A stretch of 64,000 nucleotides of DNA from an uncultured Bacteroidales bacterium (lineage in GTDB: Bacteria > Bacteroidota > Bacteroidia > Bacteroidales > Bacteroidaceae): the NCBI GenBank assembly GCA_902775375.1, contig CACYLU010000012.1:1-64000 (forward strand), in the 5' to 3' direction. The notes below the pieces were generated by a model. That model saw only the letters and a program-made list of their open reading frames with translations. It ran no database searches and had not been told where the DNA came from. Within the stretch, counting starts at the first letter, position 1, and every line of letters begins with the position of its first letter. Below are positions 26,899 through 60,927 of this stretch, piece by piece. Position numbers and translations under genes: made by a program.

Positions 26899-26958
26899 AT
26901 TTAGAAGAAGTAAGAGGTGGTTTTACTAGAATTAAAACGTCTGTTTAGTTGGACTAGG
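26899..26958 (+). repeat. 22-bp-period motif array (element B)
   Basis: Three 16-bp units start at 26899 (ATTTAGAAGAAGTAAG), 26921 (TTTTACTAGAATTAAA) and 26943 (GTTTAGTTGGACTAGG), exactly 22 bp apart. The shared pattern is nTTTAnnnGRAnTARR. The array ends 83 bp before the tandem iterons of element B. Confidence 0.65.
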
Positions 26959-27041
26959 CTTTTAGCTGGCTTGCAGACCAGTTTATGCACATGTTTTTTT
27001 AGGATTATGTATATTCGGAAATAATAGCACTGTCGTAGCGA

Positions 27042-27273
27042 ACCATCTTACCATCATACCATCGTACCATCGTACCATCGTACCATCGTACCATCGTACC
27101 ATCGTACCATTTAGTTATTCACAAACTTTTTTAGTTGATGCATCAACTTTATATTTATATATATTATATATATAATATATATAAATATAAAAATTTATAT
27201 CAATGATTTTTCTTTCCGTTGTGAAAATCACAAAAGACAAGATGGTATGATGGTACGATGGTATGATGGTATG
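27042..27273. repeat. Composite repeat element B: 8-bp iterons around a 44-bp palindrome
   Basis: The left arm has eight full 8-bp units ACCATCGT (the first two are ACCATCTT and ACCATCAT) from 27042, plus a partial ninth. The right arm has four inverted units GATGGTAT/GATGGTAC at 27241-27272. The centre is a perfect 44-bp AT-only palindrome at 27148-27191. Next to it is a 12-bp palindrome TTGATGCATCAA (27135-27146). Confidence 0.85.
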
Positions 27274-27464
27274 TCTGTCATGTTTCAAATGTCCTCAAAT
27301 GTTAAATCTTCACCTCCTCACGATAATAATTCAACTTTCAAAGTAGCGATGTTATTTATCTATATCACGCCAAGTAGCAAAGGTATCAAGGTTGTTTTAT
27401 ATTCTATATGATATGTTGTAACTATATTGATAATCAAATTGAAATGAACTTCGGAATAACTGAC

Positions 27465-27932
27465 TTATTTGCTTAAACGCTCGAGGGCTGATGCATCGAG
27501 GCGATAGACCGTCCATTCCTTCATGGGTACGGCACCCAGTGAGAGGTAAAAGTCAATGCTGGGCTGGTTCCAGTTCAGACAGGTCCACTCCATGCGTCCG
27601 CAATGGTGCTCACGTGCCGTCTTGACCAAATGCAGGAGCAAGGCTTTGCCGTAGCCTTTGCCACGATATTCTGGCCACACGAACAAGTCCTCTAGGTATA
27701 AGCCCGAATGTCCTATGAAGGTGGAGAAATTGTAGAAGTAGAGGGCAAAGCCTACCTCACGGCCATCCACTACGGCAAATATGGCTTCAGCACGATGCTC
27801 GTCGAACATCTCGTGTTCCAGCACCTCGACAGAAGCCACAACTTCGTTTTCCAGTTTCTCATACCTGGCAATGCCCTTGATGAAGTCAAGCAGCAATGCT
27901 GCATCTTTACGCTCGGCTTTTCGTATCTCCAT
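27465..27932 (-). CDS. GNAT-family N-acetyltransferase (SSAT-like)
   Basis: The 155-aa protein covers a single GNAT domain. The acetyl-CoA loop is RGKGYGKALL (about 92-101). The pattern GLYLEDLFVWPEYRG, then CGRMEWTCLNWNQPSI.FY.S.GA, is that of spermidine/spermine N-acetyltransferase-like proteins. A polyamine or small amine substrate is therefore possible, though many relatives act on other amines such as thialysine. It lies downstream of pheS in the same direction, but a strong terminator separates them. Confidence 0.85.
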   Translation of the reverse strand: MEIRKAERKDAALLLDFIKGIARYEKLENEVVASVEVLEHEMFDEHRAEAIFAVVDGREVGFALYFYNFSTFIGHSGLYLEDLFVWPEYRGKGYGKALLLHLVKTAREHHCGRMEWTCLNWNQPSIDFYLSLGAVPMKEWTVYRLDASALERLSK

Positions 27933-27950
27933 AATTTTAACTCCGTCTTG

Positions 27951-27980
27951 AAAAAAATACCCCCTCTGTTATAGAGGGGG
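27951..27980 (-). terminator. Terminator of pheS
   Basis: CCCCCTCT (27960-27967) pairs with AGAGGGGG (27973-27980). On the reverse strand TATTTTTTT follows. A second partly similar C-run/G-run lies at 28000-28017, nearer pheS. Confidence 0.8.
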
Positions 27981-28033
27981 AACTATTTGATTATGAGCCA
28001 CTCCCTCTGATGAAAGGGGGAATGATTTATTCA

Positions 28034-29071
28034 TTAATATGCTGCCTCGAACTCACGGAGGAAACGTACGTCGTTCTCGCTGAACAGTCGCAGGTCGCTT
28101 ACTTGGTATTTCAGGTTGGCAATACGCTCGATACCCATACCGAAGGCATAGCCAGTATAGACCTTGCTGTCGATGCCGCAAGCCTCAAGCACGTTAGGAT
28201 CTACCATACCGCAGCCAAGAATCTCTACCCAGCCAGTATGCTTGCAGAAGCCGCATCCCTTGCCACCACAGATGTTGCAACTGATGTCCATTTCTGCACT
28301 TGGCTCGGTGAAGGGGAAGTAAGAGGGACGCAGACGAATTTTGGTGTCGTTGCCGAACATCTCACGGGCAAAGGTGAGCAATACCTGCTTCAGGTCGGTG
28401 AATGAAACACCTTTGTCAATATAAAGACCTTCAACCTGGTGGAAGAAGCAGTGGGCACGGGCACTGATGGCTTCGTTACGATAGACACGTCCTGGACAGA
28501 TAACTCGGATAGGGGGCTGTGTCTGCTCCATCACGCGAGCCTGCACTGAACTGGTGTGGGAACGAAGGATGATATTCTTGATGACATTCTCGTTCTGCTC
28601 AACGAAGAAGGTGTCTTGCATGTCGCGAGCTGGATGGTCGGCTGCAAAATTCAGCTTGGTGTATACATGCAAGTCGTCTTCCACTTCAGGACCCTCGGCC
28701 AGCTTGAAGCCCATGTGTCCGAAAATGTCGATAATCTCGTTTTTCACAATCGTCAGTGGGTGGCGAGTGCCTAAAACGCTTGGATAGGAGGTACGCGTCA
28801 GGTCAATGTCTTCATCAGTATTATCCATGCTGTCGAACTGTTCCTTCAGAGCATTGATTCTTTCTTGCACTTGGTTTTTCAGTTCATTGATCTTCATGCC
28901 CACCTCACGCTTTTGGTCAGCTGCTACCTCACGGAAATCAGCCATCAAAGCGTTGATAACGCCTTTCTTGCTTAAATATTTGATGCGTAGAGCTTCCAAC
29001 TCTTCCATGTTTGTTGCGTGCATCTCTTGCACATTCTGCAACGTCTCGTTGATTTTGTCAAGTATATTCAT
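28034..29071 (-). CDS. pheS: Phenylalanine--tRNA ligase alpha subunit
   Basis: This is the catalytic alpha chain of the alpha2-beta2 class II synthetase, 345 aa. It has an N-terminal coiled coil that contacts tRNA (about 1-90), the motif HPL near TRHPL (about 102-106), motif 2 (VYRNEAISARAHCFFHQVEG, about 197-216) and motif 3 near the end (GYAFGMGIERIANL). The beta subunit pheT is not in this window. A clear promoter (29102-29134) faces the divergent DUF4286 gene. Confidence 0.96.
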   Translation of the reverse strand: MNILDKINETLQNVQEMHATNMEELEALRIKYLSKKGVINALMADFREVAADQKREVGMKINELKNQVQERINALKEQFDSMDNTDEDIDLTRTSYPSVLGTRHPLTIVKNEIIDIFGHMGFKLAEGPEVEDDLHVYTKLNFAADHPARDMQDTFFVEQNENVIKNIILRSHTSSVQARVMEQTQPPIRVICPGRVYRNEAISARAHCFFHQVEGLYIDKGVSFTDLKQVLLTFAREMFGNDTKIRLRPSYFPFTEPSAEMDISCNICGGKGCGFCKHTGWVEILGCGMVDPNVLEACGIDSKVYTGYAFGMGIERIANLKYQVSDLRLFSENDVRFLREFEAAY

Positions 29072-29098
29072 TTTATTTCCTTAATCTTCGATTAACGG

Positions 29099-29134
29099 TT
29101 GCAAAGATATATATTATTCATTACTTTTGCAAAA
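29099..29134. promoter_or_regulatory. Overlapping face-to-face promoters for pheS and DUF4286-ruvC
   Basis: Forward: TTG (29099-29101), 20 nt, TACTTTTG (29122-29129). Reverse: TTTTG (complement 29130-29134), 20 nt, TATCTTTG (complement 29102-29109). Each -33 element adjoins the other's -7 box inside the same 36 bp, so both cannot be occupied together. Confidence 0.7.
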
Positions 29135-29149
29135 GAAAATAGGCAGATT

Positions 29150-29473
29150 ATGATTGTTTATAATACAACATACCACGTGGATGAGGCTGATGAACAGCTT
29201 TTCCTGAATTGGATACACCAGTATCTCATACCTGAGGTGCTGAAGGAGGGCACTTTGCATAATCCCCGTGTACTAAAGGTGCTGGGGCATCATCAGGATG
29301 ACGGTGACGACGGACACTCGGTGTCGTATGCTGTACAGCTGGAGGCTGACGATACAGCAGCTCTACACCGCTGGTATCAGAAACAAGGAGTGGCGCTGAA
29401 TAAAGAGTTGTTGCTGGTGTTCCGCCAACGTGTTTTGGGATTTCCTACTTTGATGGAGGTAGTAGAGCAATGA
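29150..29473 (+). CDS. DUF4286 family protein
   Basis: The 107-aa protein starts at [13 protein letters not shown] longer frame from a TTG upstream would begin inside the promoter and is rejected. It matches the small DUF4286 family of Bacteroidetes (conserved N-terminal [21 protein letters not shown] and the final [19 protein letters not shown]). The function is unknown; the fold resembles a ferredoxin-like small domain. The stop overlaps the ruvC start (ATGA), so the two are translationally coupled. Confidence 0.85.
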
Positions 29474-30036
29474 CAGACCCTGTTAAAGAAAAGATTATAT
29501 TGGGCATCGACCCGGGTACCACCGTGATGGGCTATGGTGTGCTGAAGGTGGCGATGGGTAAGCCGTCGCTGATAGCAATGGGGGTGATTGATCTACATAA
29601 ATATGGCAACCACTACCTGAAGTTGGCCAAGATACACGAACGTGTGCTGAGCATTATCGAGAGCTATCTGCCTGATGAATTGGCTATTGAGGCACCGTTC
29701 TTTGGCAAGAACGTGCAGAGTATGCTGAAGTTGGGACGTGCTCAGGGGGTGGCAATGGCAGTGGCGCTGAGCCGTGATATTCCAATTACCGAATATGCAC
29801 CTTTGAAAATAAAGATGGCGATAACGGGCAACGGTAATGCGTCGAAGGAGCAAGTGGCTGGCATGTTGCAACGACTGTTGCACATTGCCGAAGAGGATAT
29901 GCCAAAGTTCCTCGATGCAACGGATGCCTTGGGAGCTGCCTATTGTCATTTCATGCAGATGGGGACACCTAAGGTGGAGAAAAGTTATAAGAGTTGGAAG
30001 GATTTTGTGACAAAAAATCCAGATAAAGTAGTTTGA
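29470..30036 (+). CDS. ruvC: Crossover junction endodeoxyribonuclease RuvC
   Basis: This Holliday-junction resolvase has 188 aa. The RNase H-fold acidic residues are visible in [13 protein letters not shown] (Asp near 12), [10 protein letters not shown] (Glu near 73) and [12 protein letters not shown] near the C-terminus. The length is normal. It overlaps DUF4286 by 4 bp, and the next gene (pullulanase) begins 2 bp after its stop, so a repair gene is in one transcript with a polysaccharide enzyme. Confidence 0.95.
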
Positions 30037-30038
30037 TA

Positions 30039-32036
30039 ATGAAGAATATATTTTATTTTTTGATGATGGCATGTGTGATGGCTGGTTGTATGGAGAAGGA
30101 GAGGGTGATATATGAATCGTTTGATGCTTATCCTGTAAGGAAGGGAAGTTTGAGCGAGATGGAATATACACCCAGTGTCACCAGTTTCCATTTATGGAGC
30201 CCCAATGCCGATGAGGTTCGCCTGATGCTGTATGAAGAGGCAGAGGGAGGTCATGCTTTTCAGACACATCACATGAAACTGGGTGATGATGGTACCTGGC
30301 ATGTAGATGTGAACGAAGATTTGAAGGGCAAGTTTTATGCTTTCAACGTGAAGATGCAGGATGAATGGTTGGGCGATACTCCTGGATTGTTTGCCAAAGC
30401 GGTGGGCATCAACGGTCATCGTGGCGCTATTATAGATATGGTGCAAACCAACCCTACAGGGTGGGAAAACGACCGTAAGCCTGCACTGAGGAGTGTGGCT
30501 GATGTGGTGGTGTATGAGATGCACCATCGTGATTTCTCCATCGACGCCAGTTCGGGCATTGAGCATAAAGGACAGTTCTTGGCTCTGACGGAGCAAGGAA
30601 CGCAAAGTCCTGAAGGCTTGGCTACAGGTATCGACCACCTGAAAGAACTGGGGGTGACGCATGTACATCTATTGCCTTCGTACGATTATGCGTCGATTGA
30701 CGAGCATACATTTAAGGATAGTCATTATAATTGGGGCTATGATCCACAGAACTACAACGTGCCTGACGGCTCGTATGCTACAGATCCTACGCAACCAGTC
30801 ACTCGCATTATGGAGTTCAAGCAAATGGTGCAAGCCCTGCATCAAGCTGGTATTCGTGTAGTGCTCGATGTGGTGTATAACCATACCTATAATGCAGCTA
30901 CCAGCGCATTTGAGAAAACGGTGCCAGGCTATTTCTATCGTATGAAACCAGATGGCACTTTTGCCAACGGTTCGGGATGTGGCAACGAGACAGCCAGCAA
31001 TCGCCCCATGATGCGTAAATTTATGGTGGAGAGCGTGCTATACTGGATGCGTGAATATCATCTCGATGGTTTCCGTTTCGACCTGATGGGCATTCATGAC
31101 ATTGCCACCATGAACGAAATCAGGCAAGAGGCTCAGAAGCTTGACCCACAGGTATTGATATATGGTGAGGGATGGGCAGCTGAGACACCTCAGTATGCTG
31201 CCGACTCATTGGCGATGAAGGCCAATATCGCCCGTATGCCTGGCATCGCCGCATTCTGCGACGAAATGCGCGATGGATTGCGTGGCCCTTGGGATGACGA
31301 CAAGAAAGGTGCATTTTTGGCAGGTTTCCCAGGACACGAGGAGAGCATTAAGTTTGGCATTGTTGGCGCCATCAGTCATCCACAGGTGAAGATGGATGAG
31401 GTGAACTATAGCAACAAGGCGTGGGCTCAAGAGCCTGTGCAGATGATGAGTTATGTGAGCTGCCACGATGATATGTGTCTGGTGGATAGGTTGCGTACTT
31501 CTGTAACTGACTTGAAGGGCAATGATTTGGAAAAACTCGATATGTTAGCGCAAACTGCAGTGCTTACCTCACAGGGCATTCCTTTCATCTTTGCCGGTGA
31601 GGAGGTGATGCGTGATAAGAAATTTGTACACAATAGTTTTCAAAGCCCTGATAGTGTGAATGCTATTAATTGGCACAACAAGGCAAAATATCAGTGGGTG
31701 TTTAATTATTATAAAGGATTGATAGCTATGCGTAAGCATCATCCTGCCTTCCGTTTGGGTAGTGCCGAACTGGTGCGTCAACACTTGGAGTTCTTGCCTG
31801 TTGAAGGTAGTGGAGTGGTAGCTTTCCGTCTGAAAGACCATGCTGGTGGTGATGCGTGGGACAATATCATTGTGGTGCTGAATGCGCGTCGTGAAACTGC
31901 TAAAATAGAGGTGCCCGAAGGTAAGTATGTTGCTGTGGTGAAAGACGGTTGGGTAAACGAAAACGGTATTGGCACCATTTATGGACCTATTCTGAATATA
32001 GCTCCAGAAACCGCATTAATTGTTTACCAAGAATAG
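30039..32036 (+). CDS. pulA: Type I pullulanase lipoprotein
   Basis: This debranching enzyme hydrolyses alpha-1,6 bonds in pullulan or glycogen-type glucans. It has 665 aa from ATG 30039. The N-terminus is a lipoprotein signal (FLMMACVMAGC), so it is anchored in the envelope. A CBM48-like beta-sandwich (about 40-140) precedes the GH13 barrel. The pullulanase I signature YNWGYDP (about 230) and the GH13 regions are present: DVVYNHTYN, GFRFDLMGIHD (nucleophile Asp), YGEGWAAE (acid/base Glu) and SCHDDM. The start is 2 bp past the ruvC stop; a TTG six bases earlier is also in frame. Confidence 0.93.
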   Translation: MKNIFYFLMMACVMAGCMEKERVIYESFDAYPVRKGSLSEMEYTPSVTSFHLWSPNADEVRLMLYEEAEGGHAFQTHHMKLGDDGTWHVDVNEDLKGKFYAFNVKMQDEWLGDTPGLFAKAVGINGHRGAIIDMVQTNPTGWENDRKPALRSVADVVVYEMHHRDFSIDASSGIEHKGQFLALTEQGTQSPEGLATGIDHLKELGVTHVHLLPSYDYASIDEHTFKDSHYNWGYDPQNYNVPDGSYATDPTQPVTRIMEFKQMVQALHQAGIRVVLDVVYNHTYNAATSAFEKTVPGYFYRMKPDGTFANGSGCGNETASNRPMMRKFMVESVLYWMREYHLDGFRFDLMGIHDIATMNEIRQEAQKLDPQVLIYGEGWAAETPQYAADSLAMKANIARMPGIAAFCDEMRDGLRGPWDDDKKGAFLAGFPGHEESIKFGIVGAISHPQVKMDEVNYSNKAWAQEPVQMMSYVSCHDDMCLVDRLRTSVTDLKGNDLEKLDMLAQTAVLTSQGIPFIFAGEEVMRDKKFVHNSFQSPDSVNAINWHNKAKYQWVFNYYKGLIAMRKHHPAFRLGSAELVRQHLEFLPVEGSGVVAFRLKDHAGGDAWDNIIVVLNARRETAKIEVPEGKYVAVVKDGWVNENGIGTIYGPILNIAPETALIVYQE

Positions 32037-32127
32037 TTGATTATTAGGACTTTTTGGAAATGTGAGGGCGTACTCAAGTTTGCCAGGGGTATGCAAAGTC
32101 GTGATAAAACTGATTTAAGTATAAGAG

Positions 32128-33669
32128 TTGGAAGCAAAAATAAAGAATAATGGTAGGTTTTCGGTCATCGTAGAAGGGCCTTGCTCAATAAAGATGACAG
32201 AGGTGTTGCCTCGTAGGCCAGATGTACGTATGGCAGAACCTACATCGCTGGAAATCGGAAAAGGAGAACAGATAGCGTTAGTGGGTGAGAATGGTATGGG
32301 TAAAAGTATGCTGGTGGATTTGCTGATGGGCAAATATCCCTTACAGCATGGCTCTTTGGAGTATGATTTCTCGCCCTCACCTTGGAAGGAGGCATATAAG
32401 AACATCAAGCATATCAGTTTCCGAGATACGTTTGGAAGCTCAGACACCAATTACTATTATCAGCAACGATGGAACTCAACCGACTTGGACGAGGTGCCAC
32501 TGGTGAAGGACTTGATTGGTAGTTATGAGGAAAGTGATTTCCAACGTCAGATGTTTGCACTCTTTCATGTGGAAGAAATGCTCGACAAACCCGTTATCTT
32601 GCTGAGTAGTGGTGAGATGCGTAAATTTCAGCTGACCAAGATGCTGCTCACACATCCACGTATTCTGATATTGGACAATCCCTACATTGGACTTGATGCT
32701 GCTACACGCGACCAACTGACTGAGTTGTTGAAACAATTGTCGGAGAAACGAGGTATCCAACTAATTTTGGTAATGAGCATGATGGACAGTGTGCCTGATT
32801 TCATTACGCATGTAGTGGTTGTGAAAGATATGAAGGTGGCGGGCAAGATGACACTGGGGGATTATCGTTCTTGGTTCAACAATGTACTTGCAAAACACTC
32901 TTTCGAGGAGATTGTATTACCAATGCCAAACTTACAGTTATCATCTAACAATCAGCAACTAACATCCTCTAATACTCATTCGTCATCTATTAACTTTCTA
33001 CATGACGAGGTGGTAAGACTGAACAAAGTGAGTATTCGTTATGGCACCCGAACCATTTTGAAAGACTTGGACTGGGTGGTACGTAGGGGTGAGAAATGGG
33101 CGCTGAGTGGCGAAAACGGATGCGGCAAGTCAACTCTGCTAAGCATTATCTGTGCCGACAATCCTCAGAGTTATGCCTGCGATGTGAGTCTGTTTGGCTA
33201 TAAAAGAGGTTCTGGCGAGAGCATTTGGGACATTAAGAAACACATTGGTTACGTGAGTCCTGAGATGCATCGTGCTTACTTGAAGAACTTGCCAGCTATT
33301 GACATTGTGGCGAGTGGATTGCATGACTCTATTGGCCTGTATGTCAAACCCAAGCCCGGGCAACGTGAGGTGTGCCAGCAATGGATGGATACATTTGGTG
33401 TGGCTCATTTGGCAGACAGACCTTTCTTGCAGATGAGTGATGGCGAACAGCGTATGGTGTTGTTGGCAAGGGTCTTTGTGAAAGACCCTGAACTGTTGAT
33501 CCTTGACGAACCCTTGCATGGGTTGGATACCTTCAACCGTCAGAAGGTAAAACGTATCATCAATGCTTTTTGTGCCCGTGAGGATAAGACGCTGATGATG
33601 GTATCGCATTTTGAAAACGAATTGCCTTCTTGCATTGACCATCAGTTGCACTTGAAGAAAATAATATAA
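32128..33669 (+). CDS. Tandem-domain ABC ATP-binding protein (ModF-like)
   Basis: This soluble 513-aa protein has two nucleotide-binding domains and no membrane segment. NBD1 has Walker A GENGMGKS (about 52-59), signature LSSGEMRKF and Walker B ILILDNPYIGLD, with Asn in place of the catalytic Glu. The expected switch histidine is also absent (LVMSMMDS). NBD2 has Walker A GENGCGKST, signature MSDGEQRM, Walker B LLILDEPLHGLD and a proper H-loop (MMVSHFE), so only one ATP site looks fully competent. The layout resembles ModF-type proteins, whose role is unclear. The start seems to be TTG (32128); the first ATG would be at 32194, just before LPRRPDVRMAEP. The next gene starts 3 bp later. Confidence 0.85.
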   Translation: MEAKIKNNGRFSVIVEGPCSIKMTEVLPRRPDVRMAEPTSLEIGKGEQIALVGENGMGKSMLVDLLMGKYPLQHGSLEYDFSPSPWKEAYKNIKHISFRDTFGSSDTNYYYQQRWNSTDLDEVPLVKDLIGSYEESDFQRQMFALFHVEEMLDKPVILLSSGEMRKFQLTKMLLTHPRILILDNPYIGLDAATRDQLTELLKQLSEKRGIQLILVMSMMDSVPDFITHVVVVKDMKVAGKMTLGDYRSWFNNVLAKHSFEEIVLPMPNLQLSSNNQQLTSSNTHSSSINFLHDEVVRLNKVSIRYGTRTILKDLDWVVRRGEKWALSGENGCGKSTLLSIICADNPQSYACDVSLFGYKRGSGESIWDIKKHIGYVSPEMHRAYLKNLPAIDIVASGLHDSIGLYVKPKPGQREVCQQWMDTFGVAHLADRPFLQMSDGEQRMVLLARVFVKDPELLILDEPLHGLDTFNRQKVKRIINAFCAREDKTLMMVSHFENELPSCIDHQLHLKKII

Positions 33670-33672
33670 GGA

Positions 33673-34329
33673 ATGGATTATTTAATCAATATAGACAGCG
33701 ACTTGCTCTTGTGGATCAACGGGGCTCACAACGCTTTTTTTGATGCGTTTATGATGCTCTTTACTAACAAGTTCATTTGGGTGCCAATGTACTTGGCGTT
33801 AGCCTACTTGCTTTTCAGGAATATGTCTCTTAAACAAGCAGTGATGTGCTTGGTAGCTATAGCGTTGCTCGTCGTCATTACCGACCAGATGAGTTCCTCA
33901 CTGATTCGTTATGCTGTAGGACGCTTACGTCCTGCTAATTTGGAAAACCCCATTAGTGATATGGTGCATATCGTTGATGGTTATCGAGGGGGCAGATATG
34001 GCTTCCCGAGTAGTCATGCCGCCAACTCGTTTGGTCTGGCATTCTTCCTGCTCTACTTATTTCGTCGCAGTCCGATTCCAGTTTTTGTCATGGTGTGGGC
34101 TATTTTCAATAGCTATTCACGCATTTATTTAGGTGTGCATTATCCAGGCGATATATTGTGTGGCGTGCTGGTGGGCTTGTTAGCAGCTACGTTGGTGTGG
34201 TTTATTTATAAGAAGCTAACAAATCAGTCATATCTCTCAGAAGTGCGAGGATGGAGTATGCCGATTGTGGTTGGCTTGCTCACAGTTGTTGGCATTTCGC
34301 TCTATTCATATTATGTAATTAATTATTAA
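33673..34329 (+). CDS. Membrane PAP2-family phosphatase
   Basis: The 218-aa polytopic membrane protein has about five or six hydrophobic segments. The PAP2 active-site motifs are in order: RYAVGRLRP (about 77-85), PSSHAANSFG (about 114-123) and SRIYLGVHYPGD (about 149-160), giving the catalytic histidines. Such enzymes dephosphorylate undecaprenyl pyrophosphate or lipid phosphates, and in Bacteroidetes some act on lipid A. The substrate cannot be told from sequence. It starts 3 bp after the ABC gene and 12 bp before a second phosphatase. Confidence 0.9.
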   Translation: MDYLINIDSDLLLWINGAHNAFFDAFMMLFTNKFIWVPMYLALAYLLFRNMSLKQAVMCLVAIALLVVITDQMSSSLIRYAVGRLRPANLENPISDMVHIVDGYRGGRYGFPSSHAANSFGLAFFLLYLFRRSPIPVFVMVWAIFNSYSRIYLGVHYPGDILCGVLVGLLAATLVWFIYKKLTNQSYLSEVRGWSMPIVVGLLTVVGISLYSYYVINY

Positions 34330-34341
34330 AACCTATATGTT

Positions 34342-35154: not shown

Positions 35155-35164
35155 AGATTATATC

Positions 35165-36679: not shown

Positions 36680-36704
36680 ACATAATATTCCATATTGATA
36701 TTAT

Positions 36705-36740
36705 AAGCCCCAAAATTGATTAAGATTTTTGGGGCTTACT
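36705..36740 (+). terminator. Hairpin after nnr
   Basis: AAGCCCCAAAA (36705-36715) pairs perfectly with TTTTGGGGCTT (36727-36737). The U-tract is poor, but the stem is strong and lies 26 bp past the stop. Confidence 0.7.
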
Positions 36741-36782
36741 TCATGTTTACTGCCACACTCCTTTGAGAAAGGAAGGGGATAA

Positions 36783-37216: not shown

Positions 37217-37275
37217 AAATGGTGATTATTATGTTAATAATCTTGTTCCTTTCTTTTAATGTTCACTGATACAGC

Positions 37276-37941: not shown

Positions 37942-37959
37942 AAGTTTTTCATATATTTG
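37926..37959 (+). promoter_or_regulatory. truA promoter
   Basis: TTTTG (37926-37930), 21 nt, then TATATTTG (37952-37959). The -33 element lies inside the start of the divergent DUF5715 gene. Confidence 0.65.
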
Positions 37960-37989
37960 CGATGTAAAGGTAGTAATCATATTTGAAAA

Positions 37990-38724: not shown

Positions 38725-38855
38725 ACGTTTGGATAACGGACACTATTTCTTTTTATTTGATGTATTTTGGCTTCTTGTTGGAGGTTCTGCTTTGACGCTG
38801 TCGAATATTTCCTTGTATCATAGCAGGAACACTTTTTGAAAAAATGACAGATATT

Positions 38856-48734: not shown

Positions 48735-48801
48735 ATCAAGCTATTAGTTTATTTTGTTTGCAAAGATAGTATTTATTTGTAAGATATGAAAATCCAAAGT
48801 G

Positions 48802-48835: not shown

Positions 48836-48872
48836 GAATATTTAGAACAATGCTATATATCTCGAATTTTGA

Positions 48873-51275: not shown

Positions 51276-51313
51276 GACTGATTTAAAAATCCTTCGTGAA
51301 GGTAAGAATGTAA

Positions 51314-51895: not shown

Positions 51896-51951
51896 ATTAC
51901 TTTTATTTTAAAATTTTTAAAAACTTATTGATTAACGGTTCATTGTTTAAA

Positions 51952-52860: not shown

Positions 52861-52897
52861 TCTATCTTTTAATGGGGTAAAGGTACGGAAAAATACT

Positions 52898-53881: not shown

Positions 53882-53917
53882 CTTAGGGACTATCAACAAT
53901 TCAACTGTAATAGAGAA

Positions 53918-54664
53918 CTACTTTTGCCAAATATTCCATGCTTCAAATGCTTGCAGCAGAAGCATCTCCAAACCGTTTTTTACCATTGCTCCCTGGTTTT
54001 TGCCCTTCTTCATAAATAAGGTTTCGTCAGGATTGTAGAGTAAATCATACAGCAGATGTTTGGGCGTTAGCAGGTTGTATGGGATATCGGGGCACTCATT
54101 GATTTTAGGATACATACCCAGAGGGGTGCAGTTCACAATCACATGATGAGACTCCATGATTTCAGGTGTCAAGTCACTATAGTTAATGAACTTGTCACCT
54201 TTCTTGTTACGCGACACAAATGTGCTTTCAATGCCCAAATCCTGCAAGCCGCAATAAATAGCTTTTGAGGCACCGCCTGTGCCGAGAATCAGTGCTTTTT
54301 GATGGTGATCTTCAACAAACGGTTCGATAGATTGTGTAAAGCCAACAATATCGGAATTATATCCCACTAACTTGGTCTTCTTGTTGCTTCGAATAATTTT
54401 GATAACATTCACAGCACCAATGCGTTTGGCAGTTTCTTTGTCCAAGTCGTCAAGATAGGGAATCACCTGTTCCTTATAAGGAATGGTGACATTCAAACCC
54501 TTCAGGTTGTCGTTTTTCTCAACTACCTCCCTGAACTCATTGATGCTGGGAATCTCAAAATTCACATATTGGGCATCTATACCCTCTGCCTCAAATTTCT
54601 CGTTGAAATATCCAGCAGAAAAGGAATGTCCCAGCGGATAACCTATCAAACCGTAAATATCCAT
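53918..54664 (-). CDS. aroE: Shikimate dehydrogenase
   Basis: This NADPH-dependent enzyme performs step four of the shikimate pathway. The 248-aa protein has substrate-site residues in GYPLGHSFSAGYFN (about 7-20) and the catalytic Lys in LNVTIPYKEQV (about 57-67). The Rossmann motif is LGTGGASKAIY (about 126-136). It is slightly short compared with E. coli AroE (272 aa) but complete. It begins one base after purC. Confidence 0.94.
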   Translation of the reverse strand: MDIYGLIGYPLGHSFSAGYFNEKFEAEGIDAQYVNFEIPSINEFREVVEKNDNLKGLNVTIPYKEQVIPYLDDLDKETAKRIGAVNVIKIIRSNKKTKLVGYNSDIVGFTQSIEPFVEDHHQKALILGTGGASKAIYCGLQDLGIESTFVSRNKKGDKFINYSDLTPEIMESHHVIVNCTPLGMYPKINECPDIPYNLLTPKHLLYDLLYNPDETLFMKKGKNQGAMVKNGLEMLLLQAFEAWNIWQK

Positions 54665-54665
54665 T

Positions 54666-55607
54666 TTATAATGCTTTCAACACGTTCTTCTCAATACGCT
54701 CTAACACGTCACCTGCTGCTTCCTCTTTTTTGAACTGCTCGCCTGTGATGTGCTCGTATAGCTCGATGTAGCGATCGCTGATAGATGCTACAATCTCGTC
54801 AGTCATTTCGGGTACCTGCTGTCCAGCTTTGCCTTGGAATCCATTGTCCATCAGCCATTCGCGCACAAACTCCTTCGACAGTTGCTTCTGAGGCTCGCCC
54901 TTGTCGAATTTCTCTTGATAGCCGTCAGCATAGAAATAGCGGCTGGAATCAGGAGTATGAATCTCGTCCATCAGGTAAATCACACCATTGTGCTTGCCAA
55001 ACTCATATTTGGTGTCCACAAGGATCAAGCCTCGTTTGGCAGCAATCTCAGTGCCACGTTGGAACAAAGCCAGCGTATATTTCTCCAACAAGGCATATTC
55101 CTCATGAGTTGCCAGACCCCTCGCCAAAATCTCTTCCTTTGAAATGTCTGCATCGTGCTCGCCAATCTCTGCTTTGGTGGTAGGGGTAATGATAGGGGTA
55201 GGGAACTTCTCGTTCTCACGCATGCCTTCTGGCAGTTTTACGCCACAAATCTCACGTACACCGCTTTTGTAAGCTCGCCACGCACTGCCGCACAGGTAGC
55301 CGCGTACAATCATTTCAACAGGGAAGCCTTCGCACATCACGCCAACTGTAACCATTGGATCGGGTGATGAAAGTTTCCAGTTAGGACAGATATCAGTAGT
55401 AGCGTCCAGGAACTTAGCTGCAATCTGATTCAGTACTTGCCCTTTGAAAGGTATGCCTTTTGGCAGTATCACGTCGAAAGCTGAGATGCGGTCGGTAGCT
55501 ACCATTACCAGTTTCTCATCGTTGATATTATATACATCACGTACCTTCCCGTGGTACACACTTTTCTGTCCGGGAAAGTTGAACTCAGTTTTTGTTAATG
55601 CTTTCAT
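54666..55607 (-). CDS. purC: Phosphoribosylaminoimidazole-succinocarboxamide synthase
   Basis: This enzyme makes SAICAR in purine synthesis. I start it at [14 protein letters not shown] (313 aa). A 13-codon upstream extension of Lys/Arg-rich sequence lies inside phoH and is unlikely. Motifs are [10 protein letters not shown] (about 18-27), [24 protein letters not shown] and LVDTKYEFG. It is the long bacterial/eukaryote-like form. Its 5' end overlaps the phoH 3' end by 23 bp. Confidence 0.95.
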
Positions 55608-56571
55608 TATCTTTATCTTTAAGTACGTTTTTCTTTTCTTTGTCAAACTTATCGTAGGCTTCTACGATGCGTTCTACCAACTTGTGGCGCACAATATCTT
55701 TTTGGTTCATCTCAATGACTGAGATGCCTTTTACCCCCTTGAGGATATGCAGTGCCTGCACTAAACCAGAAGTCTGTGAAGGGGGTAGGTCAATTTGTGT
55801 CATATCGCCCGTTACAATCATCTTGGTATTCATGCCCATACGGGTAAGAAACATCTTGATTTGCTGGGTAGTTGTGTTCTGTGCTTCATCCAAAATAACT
55901 ACGGCGTCGCTCAGTGTTCTGCCTCGCATGAAAGCCAGCGGAGCAATCTGAATGACGTTAGTCTCCATGTATTCTTGCAGCTTCACAGCTGGTATCATGT
56001 CTTGCAATGCATCATACAAGGGTTGTAGATAGGGGTCAATTTTCTCTTTCATGTCGCCTGGCAGGAAGCCCAGTTTCTCTCCTGCTTCTACTGCTGGACG
56101 GCAGAGCACAATCTTCCTCTTTTCCTTATTTTTCAATGCACGCACAGCCAAAGCGATAGCAGTATAGGTCTTGCCCGATCCTGCAGGGCCTACAGCAAAC
56201 GTCAGGTCGCTGGTGTTGAATGCTTCTACCAGTTTCATCTGGTTCTCGCTTCGTGGAATGATGGGCTTGCCAACTACGCTGAATACAATCACGTTGCCCG
56301 ACTTTTCCGCTTGCGGGGCATTGCCTTTTATAATGTCGATAATAACTTCTTCTTTCAGGGAATTGAATTCGGTGCAGTATTGTTGTAATTTAGTAATACT
56401 TTCTTCAAATGCACATAACTCTTCTTCGTCGCCCAATACCTTGATTACATTGCCTCTCGCAATGATGCGCAACTTAGGGTAGAGCGCCTTGATAAGTTGC
56501 ATGTTAGTGTTGTTAACACCATAGAATATAATAGGATCTACATCCTCGAGTACAATCAGTTTTTCTATCAT
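55585..56571 (-). CDS. phoH: PhoH-family P-loop ATPase
   Basis: This 328-aa cytoplasmic protein belongs to the PhoH/PhoL family (predicted RNA-linked ATPase). It has a small N-terminal domain, then Walker [14 protein letters not shown] (about 129-141), Walker [12 protein letters not shown] (about 223-233) and the [10 protein letters not shown] motif. The C-terminus is a charged tail ([11 protein letters not shown]). It overlaps purC by 23 bp. A TATATTTG box (complement 56609-56616) is a likely -7 element. Confidence 0.93.
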
Positions 56572-56622
56572 TAACGATAAGTTCGTTTTTTATATAAAAA
56601 TTAGATTGCAAATATACGCAAA

Positions 56623-57231
56623 TTACTTTATTTTTTTTACACTGATGCCACTCTTTTTTTTCGATATTTTCAGACAATCTTTTCTCAAACGGTGGTTTTC
56701 GAAGTCAAAAAGGAGGTTAGGGTCGAAATGTTTGTTGTTTACTCGTGTTTCAAAATGCAGGTGGTCGCCTGTGGCTCTGCCTGTGCGTCCTTCCAAAGCA
56801 AGGGGGGTACCGGCTTTTACTTTGTCACCCTTTTTTACCAGATTTTTTGCGTTGTGGCTGTAGAGTGTTTCCAATCCGTTGGGATGTCGAACAATTACGC
56901 AGTTGCCGTAGTCGGCAAACCATTCCGACATCACTACATCTCCGTTGAATGCACAGCGTATGGTGTCGTTGGCAAAGGTCTTGATATCCCAGCCTGAGTG
57001 CATTCTGCCGTCTCTGTTACCATAAGGCGATAATATTTTGCAATTAGGTAAGGGAAAGTAAAAACCTTCTTCCATCAAATCCATAGGGCAGATGATCAGC
57101 TCTTCCTTGTCGTTCAACTGATTCGACGAGGTGACCTTGATGTGCTTCACTCCTACATCATAATAGTCCTGTGCCCAGGCCATCCAGGGTAGGAGAAAGG
57201 ATAATAGTATGACTATCAGTTTTTTCATCAT
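56623..57231 (-). CDS. M23-family metallopeptidase (LytM-like)
   Basis: The 202-aa exported protein has a signal peptide ending at WAQ. The peptidase M23 domain (about 65-175) has the zinc ligands in GRMHSGWDIKT and GDHLHFETRV. Such enzymes cut peptidoglycan cross-links or act as amidase activators; both ligand motifs are intact here, so it may be active. The start overlaps the stop of the B3/4 gene (ATGA). Confidence 0.92.
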   Translation of the reverse strand: MMKKLIVILLSFLLPWMAWAQDYYDVGVKHIKVTSSNQLNDKEELIICPMDLMEEGFYFPLPNCKILSPYGNRDGRMHSGWDIKTFANDTIRCAFNGDVVMSEWFADYGNCVIVRHPNGLETLYSHNAKNLVKKGDKVKAGTPLALEGRTGRATGDHLHFETRVNNKHFDPNLLFDFENHRLRKDCLKISKKKSGISVKKIK

Positions 57232-57896
57232 TCAAAACTCATTACCTCCCATTTTGTCAGCGAGGCATATCTCTTTAGTAAGTTTAATGTCAGGTCAGCT
57301 GCTTCTTGCAGACCTTTTGCACCACTATATCCGTTTATAATCACCAGCAAGTGCTGGGTATTGAGGTCAATTTTAGTGCGCTCGTTGTCGCTGGTGGGAG
57401 TGCCGATGCCTCCAATGTTATCTCTATAAACTGGCAGGCCGTCAATGTTCAGAACACCACGCCCGATGCCTTCGTAGGGCTCACCTTCACGCCCGATGCC
57501 CAAAACAAGTTTGTTGCCCACAATCTTGCCGGCATCAAAGCCACCTATGCTGTAGCCTGTTTGCAACGACACCAGGTTGATGATGTCCACCAACGTGTCT
57601 ATCTGATAGAGCTCCAATCCGCGCAGCAGTCTTCTGCGTAACGCTTCTGCCGATGGACGATAGCGGCTGGGGTCTTTGCCACAACGCCTATAGGCTGTAC
57701 GGGTGGCGGCAATGGCATATTGCTCTTTGCAGTCATCAACGTTGCTTTCGGCACGCAGTTGCTGGGTAAAGACGTCGATTTCTTGCCACAACTCCTTGCT
57801 AAAGGCAGTGTTGCTTACCCATGCCTCTACGGCAATGCCTCTGAATTCGGGGCATTTGCTCTTTAGCTCCTCTGATACTTCTATGTTCATTATCAA
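57228..57896 (-). CDS. B3/4 domain protein (PheT-like editing fold)
   Basis: The 222-aa soluble protein covers the B3/B4 domain (PF03483) found in the beta subunit of Phe-tRNA synthetase, where it edits mischarged tRNA. Recognisable pieces are AIAATRTAYRRCGKDPSRYRPS (given in two parts: AIAATRTAYR and RCGKDPSRYRPS), LVDIINLVSLQTGYSIGGFD and a C-terminal KYASLTKWEV. Free-standing B3/4 proteins are thought to be trans-editing or amino-acid-binding proteins. It lies between pgeF and the M23 peptidase. Confidence 0.85.
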   Translation of the reverse strand: MIMNIEVSEELKSKCPEFRGIAVEAWVSNTAFSKELWQEIDVFTQQLRAESNVDDCKEQYAIAATRTAYRRCGKDPSRYRPSAEALRRRLLRGLELYQIDTLVDIINLVSLQTGYSIGGFDAGKIVGNKLVLGIGREGEPYEGIGRGVLNIDGLPVYRDNIGGIGTPTSDNERTKIDLNTQHLLVIINGYSGAKGLQEAADLTLNLLKRYASLTKWEVMSFE

Positions 57897-57902
57897 TCAT
57901 AA

Positions 57903-57945
57903 CTGAAAGGATGGAAGCAGTATAGTATCTGTTCCATCCGTTCAG
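57903..57945. other. Hairpin between pgeF and the B3/4 gene
   Basis: CTGAAAGGATGGAA pairs with TTCCATCCGTTCAG with one mismatch over a 15-nt loop. There is no U-tract on the reverse strand, so it may be an mRNA-stability or partial-termination element. Confidence 0.45.
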
Positions 57946-57950
57946 TAAAA

Positions 57951-58769
57951 TTATTTATTCAGCATGATGCCTGTTAATAATCGGCCTGAATCTCTGGTCA
58001 GACGACGCACGGAGAAAAACTCCTGATACCTCAGGTAGGTGCAGATGCCCGACATCTCAATTTGAGAGGTAGGGACGCCGAATTCCTGCATATCAATACG
58101 GTTGGCCACCCACAAGTTGATGTGGTATTTGTGAGAACGGGGCACCCATTCAGCCACAAGTTCTATCGGATAGCCCGAATTCATGAACTCATCATATACT
58201 TCGTCGCCCACTTCAAAGCCTGCCAGTGAGATGCCAGGACCCACTACGATATGCACATCTTCGGGTTGGGTGTCAAACTTCTGCTGCATCTTTTGCAAGG
58301 CAGTAAGTGTTACGTGGTTGACTGTACCCCTCCAACCTGCATGTACTATGCATACTGCTTCATTCTTGGCATCGTAGATGGCAATAGGCAGGCAGTCGGC
58401 TGAGGTAACACACACGCAGATGCCCTTCTCTCTCGTCATCAGGATGTCCTTCTTTTCCAAGCGTTCCCTGCGTTCTTCCTCTGAAGCTTTCAGGAACGAC
58501 CTGCCAAGATGGGCATAGTCGGTGCTGTGAGCAAGATGAGGAATAGCCAGTACGGCAGGTCTCACGGGCAGTGCGTTGCTTACAATTTCCAGGTTTTGTT
58601 TGATTTTCTCAGGATCATCATCGGTGTAAATGCCACAATTCAAAGATCCATAGTTGCCTTCACTCACGCCTCCAAAACGTGTAGTGGTGAAACAAGTAAC
58701 GTTGGGAAAAGCCAGCATTGACTTGTATGACAACAACTTCTTGTCTTCGGATAATATAGCCATATTCAA
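57951..58769 (-). CDS. pgeF: Peptidoglycan editing factor PgeF (YfiH / polyphenol oxidase family)
   Basis: The 272-aa protein of the DUF152/YfiH family removes mis-incorporated serine from UDP-MurNAc in E. coli. Older names are laccase or polyphenol oxidase. The metal-site residues are visible: HLAHSTDY, SADCLPIAIYD (Cys) and VHAGWRGTVNH (His), with VGPGISLAGFEVG after them. The start may be M1 or M3. It heads a reverse run pgeF-B3/4-M23, which has a cell-wall theme. Confidence 0.93.
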   Translation of the reverse strand: MNMAILSEDKKLLSYKSMLAFPNVTCFTTTRFGGVSEGNYGSLNCGIYTDDDPEKIKQNLEIVSNALPVRPAVLAIPHLAHSTDYAHLGRSFLKASEEERRERLEKKDILMTREKGICVCVTSADCLPIAIYDAKNEAVCIVHAGWRGTVNHVTLTALQKMQQKFDTQPEDVHIVVGPGISLAGFEVGDEVYDEFMNSGYPIELVAEWVPRSHKYHINLWVANRIDMQEFGVPTSQIEMSGICTYLRYQEFFSVRRLTRDSGRLLTGIMLNK

Positions 58770-58883
58770 TTCCTTTTTGGTTTGTTTTTCGGTATTAGTT
58801 ATAAAAAGTTGCGCTAATGTATAGCTTTTTTTTGAACAAAAAAAATATATCTGACATTTCTTTTTAATTTAGTTTGGGCAAAA

Positions 58884-59801
58884 ATGATTATCTTTGCGGC
58901 CATGTGGTTGTTTTTAGCATTCCTTTCTGCCGCCCTGTTGGGCTTTTACGACGTTTTTAAGAAGCAGTCGCTAAAAGATAATGCCGTGTTGCCGGTGTTG
59001 TTTCTCAATACCGTTTTTTCATCTTTGGTGTTCTTGCCTTTCATTTTGGTATCATATTTTGCGCCAGAAGCCTTGCAAGATACTATCTTTTTTGTGCCTG
59101 ATGCAGGGTGGGAAGCCCATAGACTTATACTGCTCAAATCGTTTATTGTCCTCTCGTCGTGGATATTGGGCTATTTTGGTATGAAGCACTTGCCCATCAC
59201 CATTGTGGGCCCCATTAATGCCACACGCCCAGTGATGGTGCTCATAGGCGCTATGCTGCTCTTTGGTGAGCGCTTGAACCTCTATCAGTGGATAGGCGTA
59301 TTGCTGGCCATACTTTCGTTCTTCCTGCTGAGCCGTTCGGGAAAGAAAGAAGGTATTGACTTCAAACACGACCGTTGGATTTACTTTATTGTGCTGGCTG
59401 CTGTGCTTGGTGCGGTTAGTGGTTTGTACGACAAGTATTTGATGACGCAGCTTAATCCCATGTTGGTGCAGTCGTGGTATAATGTATATCAAGTGGGCAT
59501 CATGGGCAGCATCATTGCTCTGTTATGGTGGCCACAGCGCCAAAATACTACTCCTTTCCGTTGGAAGTGGACCATCGTATGCATTTCTTTGTTCCTTTCT
59601 GCTGCTGATTTTGCCTACTTCTATTCACTGAGTTTTGAAGATTCTATGGTGTCGATTGTCTCGATGGTCAGAAGGAGCAGTGTGGTGGTGTCGTTCCTCT
59701 TTGGAGCGCTTGTCTTCCGTGAAAAGAACTTAAAAAGTAAAGTTATTGACCTAATTTTGGTGCTAATTGGAATGTTCTTCTTATATTTGGGCTCAAATTA
59801 G
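58884..59801 (+). CDS. EamA/DMT-family transporter
   Basis: The 305-aa membrane protein has ten hydrophobic segments in two EamA repeats (about 4-150 and 160-303). Typical parts are GPINATRPVMVLIGAMLLFGE at the end of repeat 1 and SMVRRSSVVVSFLFGALVFREK in repeat 2 (given as motif context only). It probably exports a small metabolite or nucleotide sugar; the substrate is unknown. Two starts are possible: ATG 58884, or ATG 58902. A perfect -7 box TATCTTTG (58889-58896) lies between them, which would make the shorter form leaderless. Confidence 0.9.
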   Translation: MIIFAAMWLFLAFLSAALLGFYDVFKKQSLKDNAVLPVLFLNTVFSSLVFLPFILVSYFAPEALQDTIFFVPDAGWEAHRLILLKSFIVLSSWILGYFGMKHLPITIVGPINATRPVMVLIGAMLLFGERLNLYQWIGVLLAILSFFLLSRSGKKEGIDFKHDRWIYFIVLAAVLGAVSGLYDKYLMTQLNPMLVQSWYNVYQVGIMGSIIALLWWPQRQNTTPFRWKWTIVCISLFLSAADFAYFYSLSFEDSMVSIVSMVRRSSVVVSFLFGALVFREKNLKSKVIDLILVLIGMFFLYLGSN

Positions 59802-59923
59802 AACCTCTACAGTTGGTGATTGGGCCCAAAAGCATGATTAAGATGGGGAAAATGATGCAAGTTCCTTGGTTTAAAGGGGTTGTGTGACGGTTGTAGAGGC
59901 TCTTTGTAAGTGGTAAAAATTCG

Positions 59924-60559
59924 ATGAAAAGGACGTTTTTTGTAATATTGGCAATGCTGCTGGCTTGTCAGATGACATTCGCGCAGCAAATAAGGGAGAG
60001 TTTTGTGAATATGCCCGACTCTCTCAGTACCTTGCTGACGAAAGTGAATCGTGAAGACTTTATCGACTTCCTTGACAGCAACATGAAAGCTGAGGTGAAC
60101 AACCGGTTGGAGGGTAAATCTGAAATGACAAAACTCACGGTAGATTTTCTCGAAGTGAAGATGAGCGAGCAAAGCACCTTCCAACTGAAGGTGCTAACCA
60201 AGACCGATGGCACTCAGTTGCTCTGTGCTGTGTCAACAGTTTGTGGTCCTGTATGTGATAGCCATATAGACTTCTATACCACAGACTGGCAACTGCTTGA
60301 TGCAAATGCTCTATTGCCAAAATTTCCTACGCTTAATAACTTTCTGAAGCCTTTGCCCGAAGATGCTTCTTACACGTTGAGAGATGCTTTCCGTCAGGCT
60401 GATTTGCTGCTGATGAAGGCTGATCTTTCTGCTGACAATAGTACGCTTTCTTTCACGCTGACCACCCCTGAATATATGGATGCTGAGGCTGCTAAACTCT
60501 TGGCTCCATATGTGGTTCCTGCTGTCACTTTGCAGTGGAATGGCGAGAGTTTTCAGTGA
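59924..60559 (+). CDS. DUF3256 family secreted protein
   Basis: The 211-aa protein has a signal peptide (MKRTFFVILAMLLACQMTFAQ). The mature part matches DUF3256, a Bacteroidales family of unknown function. Conserved pieces are SFVNMPDSLSTLLTKVNREDF, STVCGPVCDSHIDFY with its paired cysteines, and LLPKFPTLNNFL. It follows the EamA gene by 122 bp in the same direction and is followed by gene-free repeat-rich DNA. Confidence 0.85.
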   Translation: MKRTFFVILAMLLACQMTFAQQIRESFVNMPDSLSTLLTKVNREDFIDFLDSNMKAEVNNRLEGKSEMTKLTVDFLEVKMSEQSTFQLKVLTKTDGTQLLCAVSTVCGPVCDSHIDFYTTDWQLLDANALLPKFPTLNNFLKPLPEDASYTLRDAFRQADLLLMKADLSADNSTLSFTLTTPEYMDAEAAKLLAPYVVPAVTLQWNGESFQ

Positions 60560-60618
60560 ATATTGCATATTTTTCATTCCTGTTTACTGCTTTAAAATGC
60601 CTTAATTGCTTCCGTTTC

Positions 60619-60700
60619 GTTTAGCGGAAGTAAAAGGTGGGGTTAGCGGAACTAAACCACCCGTTTAGCGGAAGTAAGCGGGCAGTTTAGCGGTAGTAAA
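60619..60700 (+). repeat. 22-bp-period motif array (element C)
   Basis: Four units start at 60619, 60641, 60663 and 60685, exactly 22 bp apart. They read GTTTAGCGGAAGTAAA, GGTTAGCGGAACTAAA, GTTTAGCGGAAGTAAG and GTTTAGCGGTAGTAAA. This is the best-preserved of the three arrays. Confidence 0.85.
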
Positions 60701-60778
60701 TCCTCAACCTTTCTGAGTTACCATTTTATTTCGCTTTCAGTACCCCTCTCTAGTTAAACGGTAGTTTTTCATCTATGC

Positions 60779-60927
60779 GTTACAGTTGTTACAGTTGTTA
60801 CAGTTAAAATCTGCCTATATCAAAAGTCAAAAATAATTTTTATATTTATATATATATATAAATATAAAGATAAATTTGGGTATGTGAATAGCCCCAAAAC
60901 AACTGTAACAACTGTAACAACTGTAAC
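60779..60927. repeat. Composite repeat element C: 9-bp iterons around a 30-bp palindrome
   Basis: Three identical units GTTACAGTT start at 60779, 60788 and 60797. Three inverted units AACTGTAAC start at 60901, 60910 and 60919. Between them is a perfect 30-bp AT-only palindrome (60839-60868) whose half-site TTTATATTTATATAT is the same as the start of the element B palindrome. Confidence 0.9.

Follow-up and report, generated by a model that had tools for sequence, protein, structure and literature searches.

Three composite repeat elements, A, B and C, lie between genes in the window analysed here, a stretch of 64,000 nt from an uncultured gut Bacteroidales bacterium. Their layout seems to be kept while the repeated unit changes from one to the next, and the question raised by this locus is whether they belong to one family and, if so, what kind of element it is.

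Elements of the window and the family in the genome

Element B has a 22-bp array of three units (26899..26965, plus strand; unit starts 26900, 26922 and 26944), followed by left iterons ACCATCGT (27042..27110, plus strand; 8.6 copies with 96% matches in TRF), a perfect AT palindrome of 44 bp (27148..27191) and inverted iterons (27239..27273, minus strand). A left module with an AT palindrome (26730..26753) is found again at other loci, some 170 bp ahead of the array, and a right module TCCTCAAATGTTAAATCTTCACC... (27286..27350) is common to several elements of the same subtype. Element C has an array of four units (60620..60700, plus strand; unit starts 60620, 60642, 60664 and 60686), three left iterons GTTACAGTT (60779..60805, plus strand), an AT palindrome of 30 bp (60839..60868) and inverted iterons (60898..60929, minus strand). 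The coordinates given in the initial annotation are correct to a few bases. The two elements, designated W_B and W_C in comparisons, belong to subtype I.

Element A is built differently. Its left end (3449..3546, plus strand) carries CTTCAC iterons at relative positions 0+, 7+, 53-, 72+, 82+ and 92+, which are all six positions of a fixed geometry, and its right end (3656..3753, minus strand) is the mirror image of these six. The iterons thus stand at 3449, 3456, 3521, 3531, 3541 and 3695 on the plus strand and at 3502, 3656, 3666, 3676, 3741 and 3748 on the minus strand. A CTCACGAGGGAAAAATAAAAACC module (3776..3822) adjoins the right end, as it also adjoins the VapE element L273 described below, and a two-unit array follows (3877..3920, plus strand; unit starts 3877 and 3899). 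No AT palindrome of at least 20 bp was found in A, so the palindrome is not the common core it had been taken for. Tandem iterons adjoin an AT-rich stretch in B, C and several other loci, and in this respect the proposed likeness to iteron origins holds.

In the window the array motif occurs 6 times, and shuffles gave 0.36 +/- 0.56 matches. In the genome of the window (G000, 2.43 Mb, 90% complete), the two-unit pattern with up to two mismatches has 88 matches, against 2 for the reversed pattern. The initial annotation proposed a true family, constant in geometry and variable in unit, to be given up if no further copies or no excess over shuffled DNA were seen; both copies and excess are present, and repeat elements of one plan do form a family spread across the genome. 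Exact matches to the half-palindrome TTTATATTTATATATA number 11, at six places that are all adjoined by an array. With one mismatch permitted the count rises to 19 (control, 3), and at three of the places gained in this way (C1:203281, C7:83452 and C8:168827; L095-L097) no array was seen. An exact 22-mer search of a collection of genome contigs gave 0 matches.

Among the 43 array loci examined, 30 have three units, nine have two, three have four and one has five; three chains (L063 on the minus strand, L088 and L094) were left out, and L064, L074 and L084 have two-unit matches that the stricter script did not chain. The array starts inside an ORF of at least 90 aa at only one of the 43 loci (L062), and ORFs overlap it in part at L053 and L081. 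The best inverted-arm score reaches 16 or more at 32 of the 43 loci and in none of 41 control windows (maximum 14.5), which are mostly coding. At many array loci the tandem iterons have a unit that varies between loci and recurs inverted on both sides within a locus. At least two high-scoring loci, L075 and L081, resemble ordinary short-loop hairpins.

Numerous intergenic copies and a mosaic of small palindromic modules are also features of BIME/REP repeats, which are spread by a RAYT (Y1) transposase. Such an origin is disfavoured and must be considered highly improbable: the Y1 domain PF01797 has 0 matches in G000 and in a second genome, G027 (likewise 90% complete), and was found in 3 of 15 genomes with arrays and in 2 of 15 without, and direct 22-bp arrays with long iteron sets are present here instead of paired REPs.

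CTTCAC-type ends and the VapE element

The ends of element A and of other G000 loci are the same as those of L273, an element in G000 with a single VapE/DUF3874 helicase-like ORF (6710-7891) between its two ends. The geometry of A recurs in this element (L273/L084), and the ends are common to gene-less copies and to the VapE elements L273, L295 and L296. In G000 the CTTCAC type is gene-less in 12 regions. The iteron positions are fixed in all 40 distinct ends from five genomes, while spacers vary; iteron columns are 0.95 conserved and spacers 0.61, a contrast that is partly by construction, as the iterons were the means of finding the ends. Not by construction is the comparison of spacers, with likeness of 0.45 between the two ends of one element (17 elements) and 0.48 between elements. 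An earlier count on 28 chosen ends (12 dropped, most with five of six iterons) gave 0.97/0.62 and 0.45/0.49; the figures used are those of all 40. No end of this type appeared in 20 rounds of mononucleotide shuffling.

These ends bear on the possibility that the elements are structural hairpins. In that case the inverted iterons and the AT palindrome would be maintained for the sake of a cruciform or an RNA stem-loop (terminators, nucleoid sites), and complementarity would matter but not the letters. The arms of B and C are indeed complementary although units differ between loci, and W_C, L086 and L153 differ by changes carried in every repeat of both arms. Since CTTCAC iterons are fixed and spacers are no more alike within an element than between elements, the iterons of this type point to putative protein binding sites rather than hairpin arms, and neither upkeep as hairpins nor the suggested cruciform core fits this type. 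Moreover, the primase-like genes L276, L279 and L314 have iterons in a single orientation at their 3' ends, and the elements occupy convergent, divergent and tandem gene gaps alike. A known RNA family was not recognized either: Rfam matched only tRNA in the window and one tRNA in nine element loci, with a miRNA model in L086 far under the cutoff. Altogether, hairpins are an unlikely explanation. The CTTCAC type is the one to which the evidence from ends applies; in subtype I (B and C), outside its reach, the arms may be hairpins.

Initiator-like genes at other iteron types

The initial annotation advised looking for primase and helicase genes, and these proved the right thing to seek, with VapE between the ends of L273 and a primase-like ORF beside a GTTGCAGTT array. 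In G027, the VapE gene L280 is 33% identical to that of L273 and is flanked by sets of CCTACAACCTTACAAC, a type present also on gene-less L142, L145, L146 and L160. The VapE ORF was the only gene found between the two ends in L273 and in L280, and the gene-less elements had none (neighbours judged by eye). The primase-like gene L276 has, at or just behind its 3' end, iterons that match the type on gene-less L091/L154; those in the corresponding position at L279 match the type on gene-less L053/L158. For the CCTTACAA iteron in G027, an initiator gene with matching iteron was found.

The pattern GTTRCAGTTGTTRCAGTTGTTRCAG, representing the unit of element C, matched in 3 of 158 genomes, in hairpin elements, one contig-end copy and one array of G147. 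The last match, GTTGCAGTT, is a variant of the unit. It lies as one array in the slot that the iterons of L276 and L279 also occupy, with the stop of a primase-like ORF on one side and an M15 gene on the other. An M15 gene, endolysin-like where tested, follows four primase-like genes. The fragment L314 is termed primase-like from inspection by eye and from its position ahead of the M15 gene; it gave no significant match to L276.

Clear iterons are present at 7 of 11 primase/VapE loci of G000 and G027 (L272, L273 and L276-L280), plausible ones by eye at L274, L275 and L282, and none at L281. Partner genes of VapE or primase-like type exist in G000 for 3 of 16 gene-less types (types counted by eye); searches of this 90% complete genome with PF05272, PF08800 and PF13148 found none for the other 13, including ACCATCGT of B, GTTACAGTT of C and GATTACA. 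Several cognate proteins rather than a single one, as suggested in the initial annotation, are the best reading of such genes beside some iteron types. NCBIfam gave no match above cutoff for nine proteins tested, and PADLOC gave weak or domain-level matches only.

In pairs of VapE proteins, identity of the body and of the last 60 residues was compared. L273 and L296, with the same iteron, are 83% identical in both; three pairs with differing iterons have 76/62, 65/45 and 70/42%. The pair L273/L303 has 69/45%, and a CTTCAC-type unit adjoins the L303 gene, which argues against reading of the iteron by the C-terminus.

Upstream periods in the range 15-30 were compared at 40 BT4734-VapE loci of 40 genomes. 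The best was 22 at 12 loci and another value at 28; among controls it was 22 in 14 of 160 shuffles and in none of 40 coding stretches. Several of the 12 are weak and some are near-copies (L387/L390, L377/L383). The 22-bp array is a module in its own right: in more distant genomes, some BT4734/VapE genes are preceded by arrays that have this period and a different sequence. Iterons common to both sides of the gene exceeded shuffles at no more than 5 of the 28 loci left after an ORF filter had removed 12 of 40. The VapE domain matched up to 14 times per genome and at least once in 120 of 157 genomes of the group. No account of what these VapE proteins act on was found in the literature searched.

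Probable nature of the elements and related systems

The elements are probably origin-like, gene-less versions of the ends of small VapE/BT4734 elements, with iterons as initiator sites. The source elements would be small and chromosomal, and their gene would encode an AAA+ helicase of VapE/BT4734 type that may or may not have a primase domain. This initiator would bind the iterons, probably through its C-terminal part, melt the DNA and start replication. Two iteron sets face each other across a core, which would be the AT palindrome in B and C; in the A type, a spacer or the intervening gene would take this place. Initiator loading might thus be possible from both sides. Each initiator lineage would have one iteron, and gene-less copies would track the initiator they need, which would explain why geometry is kept and the unit changes. 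The interpretation of the initial annotation is in this way supported in part. We infer that the copies are non-autonomous, served by VapE/BT4734 initiators and possibly able to arrive at new sites; they look like scattered landing sites of little-known mobile replication elements. VapE is not known to be a transposase, and no target duplication was found where sought; both points count against this interpretation.

Species differ in both presence and type of elements. The permease-xpt gap is 849 bp in G000 and 7 bp in G008 and G029, and the match between filled and empty gap stops at the gene borders, so that a target duplication is unreadable there. Among 20 gaps common to G000 and G027, element type differs in at least five (W_B/L140, W_C/L141, L058/L152, L085/L160 and L054/L145). 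Such differences are also expected from recombination between copies if the elements are relics. They would then be dead origins left by decayed prophage-like or satellite islands, reshuffled through homologous recombination at shared modules and without function or mobility today; the M15 genes behind the four primase-like genes would fit as well. Relics are nevertheless improbable, as the fixed iteron spacing of the 40 ends suggests selection or recent spread, and the 849-bp copy is missing in G008 and G029. A 2-kb difference beside W_B in G027 contains a hydrolase-like gene (by eye) and no sign of a mobile gene.

The elements could also be decoys or incompatibility sites, that is, iterons of phage or plasmid initiators kept in the chromosome to titrate invaders as a defence. 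Iteron-based incompatibility is known for SGI1 (PMC7433901), and VapE relatives with 27-37% identity are the best in phage and plasmid records among the matches listed. The GTTACAGTT array was found in four IMG/VR contigs (L252-L255), where L254 alone appears origin-like: it has GTTACAGTT-type iterons that follow, at a distance of 27 nt, an ORF in which a Walker A motif was noted by eye; L252 and L253 are near-identical around the array and, with L255, resemble coding repeats. Against decoys, ACCATCGT and GATTACA arrays are in 0 IMG/VR contigs, element B had no match in the plasmid search, and the 12 gene-less CTTCAC regions of G000 exceed the apparent need for decoys; the explanation has a low probability. 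In viral contigs, the L276 primase gave five pattern matches and no relative, and L273 VapE no match. Insertion of a plasmid or phage was rejected as the source of B, with two phage records matching 57 bp of the AT-rich part only.

The preferred reading, gene-less copies of VapE/BT4734 ends, places the elements near iteron origins, in which an initiator gene lies by tandem iterons with an AT-rich stretch and iterons are particular to a lineage (SaPI/PICI, P4, PLE, SGI1). In SaPI origins, AT-rich DNA is flanked by iterons. Iteron origins of plasmids and phage satellites belong to elements with integrase and further genes. Unlike these systems, the elements here have dozens of gene-less copies in one chromosome, and the gene-bearing form can be one VapE ORF between two mirrored end sets; integrase and packaging/interference genes of PICI satellites were not found in them (neighbours judged by eye). 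RepA and iterons are described for PLE (PMC7145576), as are rep and a putative iteron origin for SGI1 (PMC7433901). Similarly to MITEs, ends are common to gene-less and gene-bearing copies, which are intergenic and present or absent among relatives. Unlike MITEs, the internal gene encodes a VapE helicase-like ATPase and no transposase, no target duplication was found, and a single genome has many end types.

The genes adjoining iterons belong to the BT4734/BF3469-family and VirE (PF05272) primase-helicases. VirE and DUF3987 ATPases are predicted helicases of mobile elements (PMC5862659), and that text contains the words iteron, inverted repeat and VapE 0 times each. Likewise, in the BT4734/BF3469 and VirE literature searched, neither iterons nor 22-bp arrays nor gene-less copies were seen to be mentioned, and a search of non-subscription literature found no description of these elements. 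It is possible, although rather doubtful, that they form a new mobile class that spreads by replication initiation without transposase or integrase, with a single VapE-type helicase acting on mirrored iteron ends and many families per chromosome, each with its own iteron, initiator and parasitic gene-less copies.

The elements offer candidate targets for VapE with defined ends, fixed iteron positions and dozens of natural gene-less copies, which makes the reading testable, and changed specificities between iteron types might make a recognition code readable. Firing of initiators at gene-less copies would give a chromosome dozens of additional, conditional origins, and if initiators move these copies, spread would follow a transposase-free route. 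The only solved structure found by sequence among the relatives is 7pds.

Array, palindrome and two subtypes of elements

The family of composite intergenic elements is real and large. The initial annotation had described it from elements A (about 3440-3915), B (W_B, 26899-27273) and C (W_C, 60619-60927) as a conserved layout with a changing iteron unit, similar to iteron origins. These positions were confirmed, and the excess of the array motif (direct units of 22-bp period) in the window is genuine, with 6 matches against 0.36 expected. On the whole 2.43-Mb genome (G000), the two-unit 22-bp pattern has 88 matches, compared with 2 when the pattern is reversed. The half-palindrome TTTATATTTATATATA has 11 exact matches in six places, each with an adjoining array. 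With one mismatch allowed there are 19 matches versus 3 in the control, and no array was found at the three places gained. Three array units are present in 30 of 43 studied loci, a set from which three doubtful chains were left out and in which the weaker-array loci L064, L074, and L084 are not counted. An ORF of at least 90 aa crosses the array start at one of the 43 loci, and an ORF contacts the array at two others. No description of these elements was found in literature searches.

In subtype I the iterons start some 70-150 bp from the array and are followed by a core, either an AT palindrome or simply AT-rich, and then by inverted iterons; elements of this subtype often share a right module TCCTCAAATGTTAAATCTTCACC. 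Its members are B, C, L056, L060, L061, L062, L069, L085, L086, L090, L091, L092, and others, with units including ACCATCGT, GTTACAGTT, GTTGCAGTT, GATTACA, GTTGCAA, CGTACCATG, GTAACATA, TGTCAT, and CATCACCT. All repeats of both arms are GTTACAGTT in W_C, GTTGCAGTT in L086, and TTGCTACAG in L153 of the related genome G027; judging by sequence, unit change between elements can be concerted. The element C unit, with A or G allowed, matches in 3 of 158 genomes: in G000 (C and L086), in G008 (one element at a contig end), and in G147. Subtype II (A and others) has two mirrored end sets of CTTCAC or related iterons, and also a CTCGTGAGG-type module and array in either orientation. Left of element A, a TTAGTAATGTG inverted repeat lies at 3263-3327.

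Geometry of the CTTCAC ends

Iterons of the CTTCAC ends are placed at 0+, 7+, 53-, 72+, 82+, and 92+, and an end was accepted with at least five of the six positions. Such ends occur in the window, in 12 other G000 regions (including L084, the VapE element itself), in two G027 regions, and at several loci of G006, G013, and G029, with none in 20 rounds of mononucleotide shuffling. Conservation over all 40 distinct ends is 0.95 in iteron columns, partly by construction, and 0.61 in spacers. Spacer likeness is 0.45 between both ends of one element (17 elements) and 0.48 across elements, so beyond the iterons no complementarity of the two ends is maintained. This favours protein-read sites and speaks against a hairpin upheld by pairing.

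VapE and primase-like genes

The elements are rather probably non-autonomous, origin-like elements of VapE/BT4734 initiators, with putative binding and replication; confidence in this best reading is slightly reduced because iteron conservation is partly by construction. VapE is not known to be a transposase, and the loci showed no target duplication. The search of G000 gave no partner gene for 13 of the 16 gene-less iteron types.

Domain search recognized five VapE-like, four BT4734-like_N, and two DUF3987 matches in G000, and three, two, and none, respectively, in G027. Genes right of L051 and L063 resemble VapE proteins. Solo VapE ORFs of 393-402 aa adjoin arrays and iterons at L277, L278, and L273 (G000) and L280 (G027); all four solo-type ORFs tested have VapE and DUF3874 domains. 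At L273, a mirrored pair of CTTCAC end sets encloses the ORF, and beyond it come the CTCACGAGG module and the array; element A is this arrangement minus the gene. The same end geometry encloses a VapE ORF at L295 (G006) and L296 (G013), with no array seen at L296. The L280 ORF lies between end sets of a different iteron, also present in gene-less L142, L145, L146, and L160. At L277 and L278 the ORF is alongside the iteron set, outside it. C-terminal divergence tracks iteron change in four of five VapE pairs, L303 being contrary. The VapE element with its neighbour gene (L273:6306-9666) is 95.3% identical to L295 over 3366 bp, versus 83% identity of the alaS region between G000 and G006, which suggests recent exchange.

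Of the group's 157 genomes, 120 have VapE, with up to 14 matches per genome. Forty BT4734-VapE loci, one per genome, were taken from the ranked list, with the nine best matches (another VapE type) and genomes G000, G025, G032, G042, G075, G088, G102, and G126 skipped. The best upstream period is 22 in 12 of the 40, some being near-copies of one another; shuffles gave this period in 14 of 160 cases, and coding stretches in none of 40. Most of the 40 have no clear upstream 22-bp array; clear ones, of other sequences, are at L393, L383, L392, L375, and L377. Iterons common to the upstream and downstream sides exceed shuffles at five of the 28 loci assessed. In L322 (a B. finegoldii record), CTGACAATA iterons flank the gene on both sides, with a 22-bp array upstream.

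The 817-aa primase of L276 has a BT4734-like_N domain, and its gene precedes an M15 endolysin-like gene; CACCACATCACCACATCACCTCATCACATTT directly behind the primase stop recurs in gene-less L091. The 820-aa protein of L279 has a weak DUF3987 match, and its terminal GGTCAAAAT iterons, a type also in gene-less L053 and L158 (G027), overlap the last codons. G147 has one inverted pair and, apart from it, a single GTTGCAGTT array with a primase-like ORF on one side and an M15 gene on the other; the ORF is a short fragment with no significant match to L276, so the primase link there rests on the gene slot. Primase-like genes were noted directly or closely ahead of the M15 gene at L276:3320-6327, L279:3615-6976, L281:2988-6048, and L314:967-1713; the M15 gene is endolysin-like where tested, and the cassette is small. 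At L282, AGTAACTT-AATAACCT-AGTAACTT behind the primase stop (4766) resembles by eye the AGTAACAT iterons of gene-less L069/L159. The word TAGTAATGTG of the inverted repeat at 3263-3327 may represent another iteron type: two copies lie a short way upstream of the L275 DUF3987 primase, and L050 and L087 have one each.

The same gaps in related genomes

For twenty G000 loci, G027, a relative whose PheS is 95% identical, has a partner locus that matches over about 2.2 kb or more. Among the partner loci sorted (some, not all 20), the element type differs at least at W_B/L140, W_C/L141, L058/L152, L085/L160, and L054/L145, and is unchanged at L069/L159, L051/L143, and L063/L135. Inspected by eye, the gap behind alaS carries a CTTCAC element in G000, a CTTCATA element in G006 with array and far flank as in G000, a CTTACGAA element in G013, and none of these three in G027 and G029. 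The permease-xpt gap is 849 bp in G000 versus 7 bp in G008 and G029 and 39 bp in G013; in G027 it is 364 bp with a different repeat. A different repeat with CGCAATATCT units occupies both G027 gaps, alaS (L297) and permease-xpt (L394), as though certain gaps were open to many kinds of repeat. The stretch at 2878-3109, upstream of a BspA-like LRR gene, has 73-90% matches at several places in relatives and is probably another dispersed upstream module.
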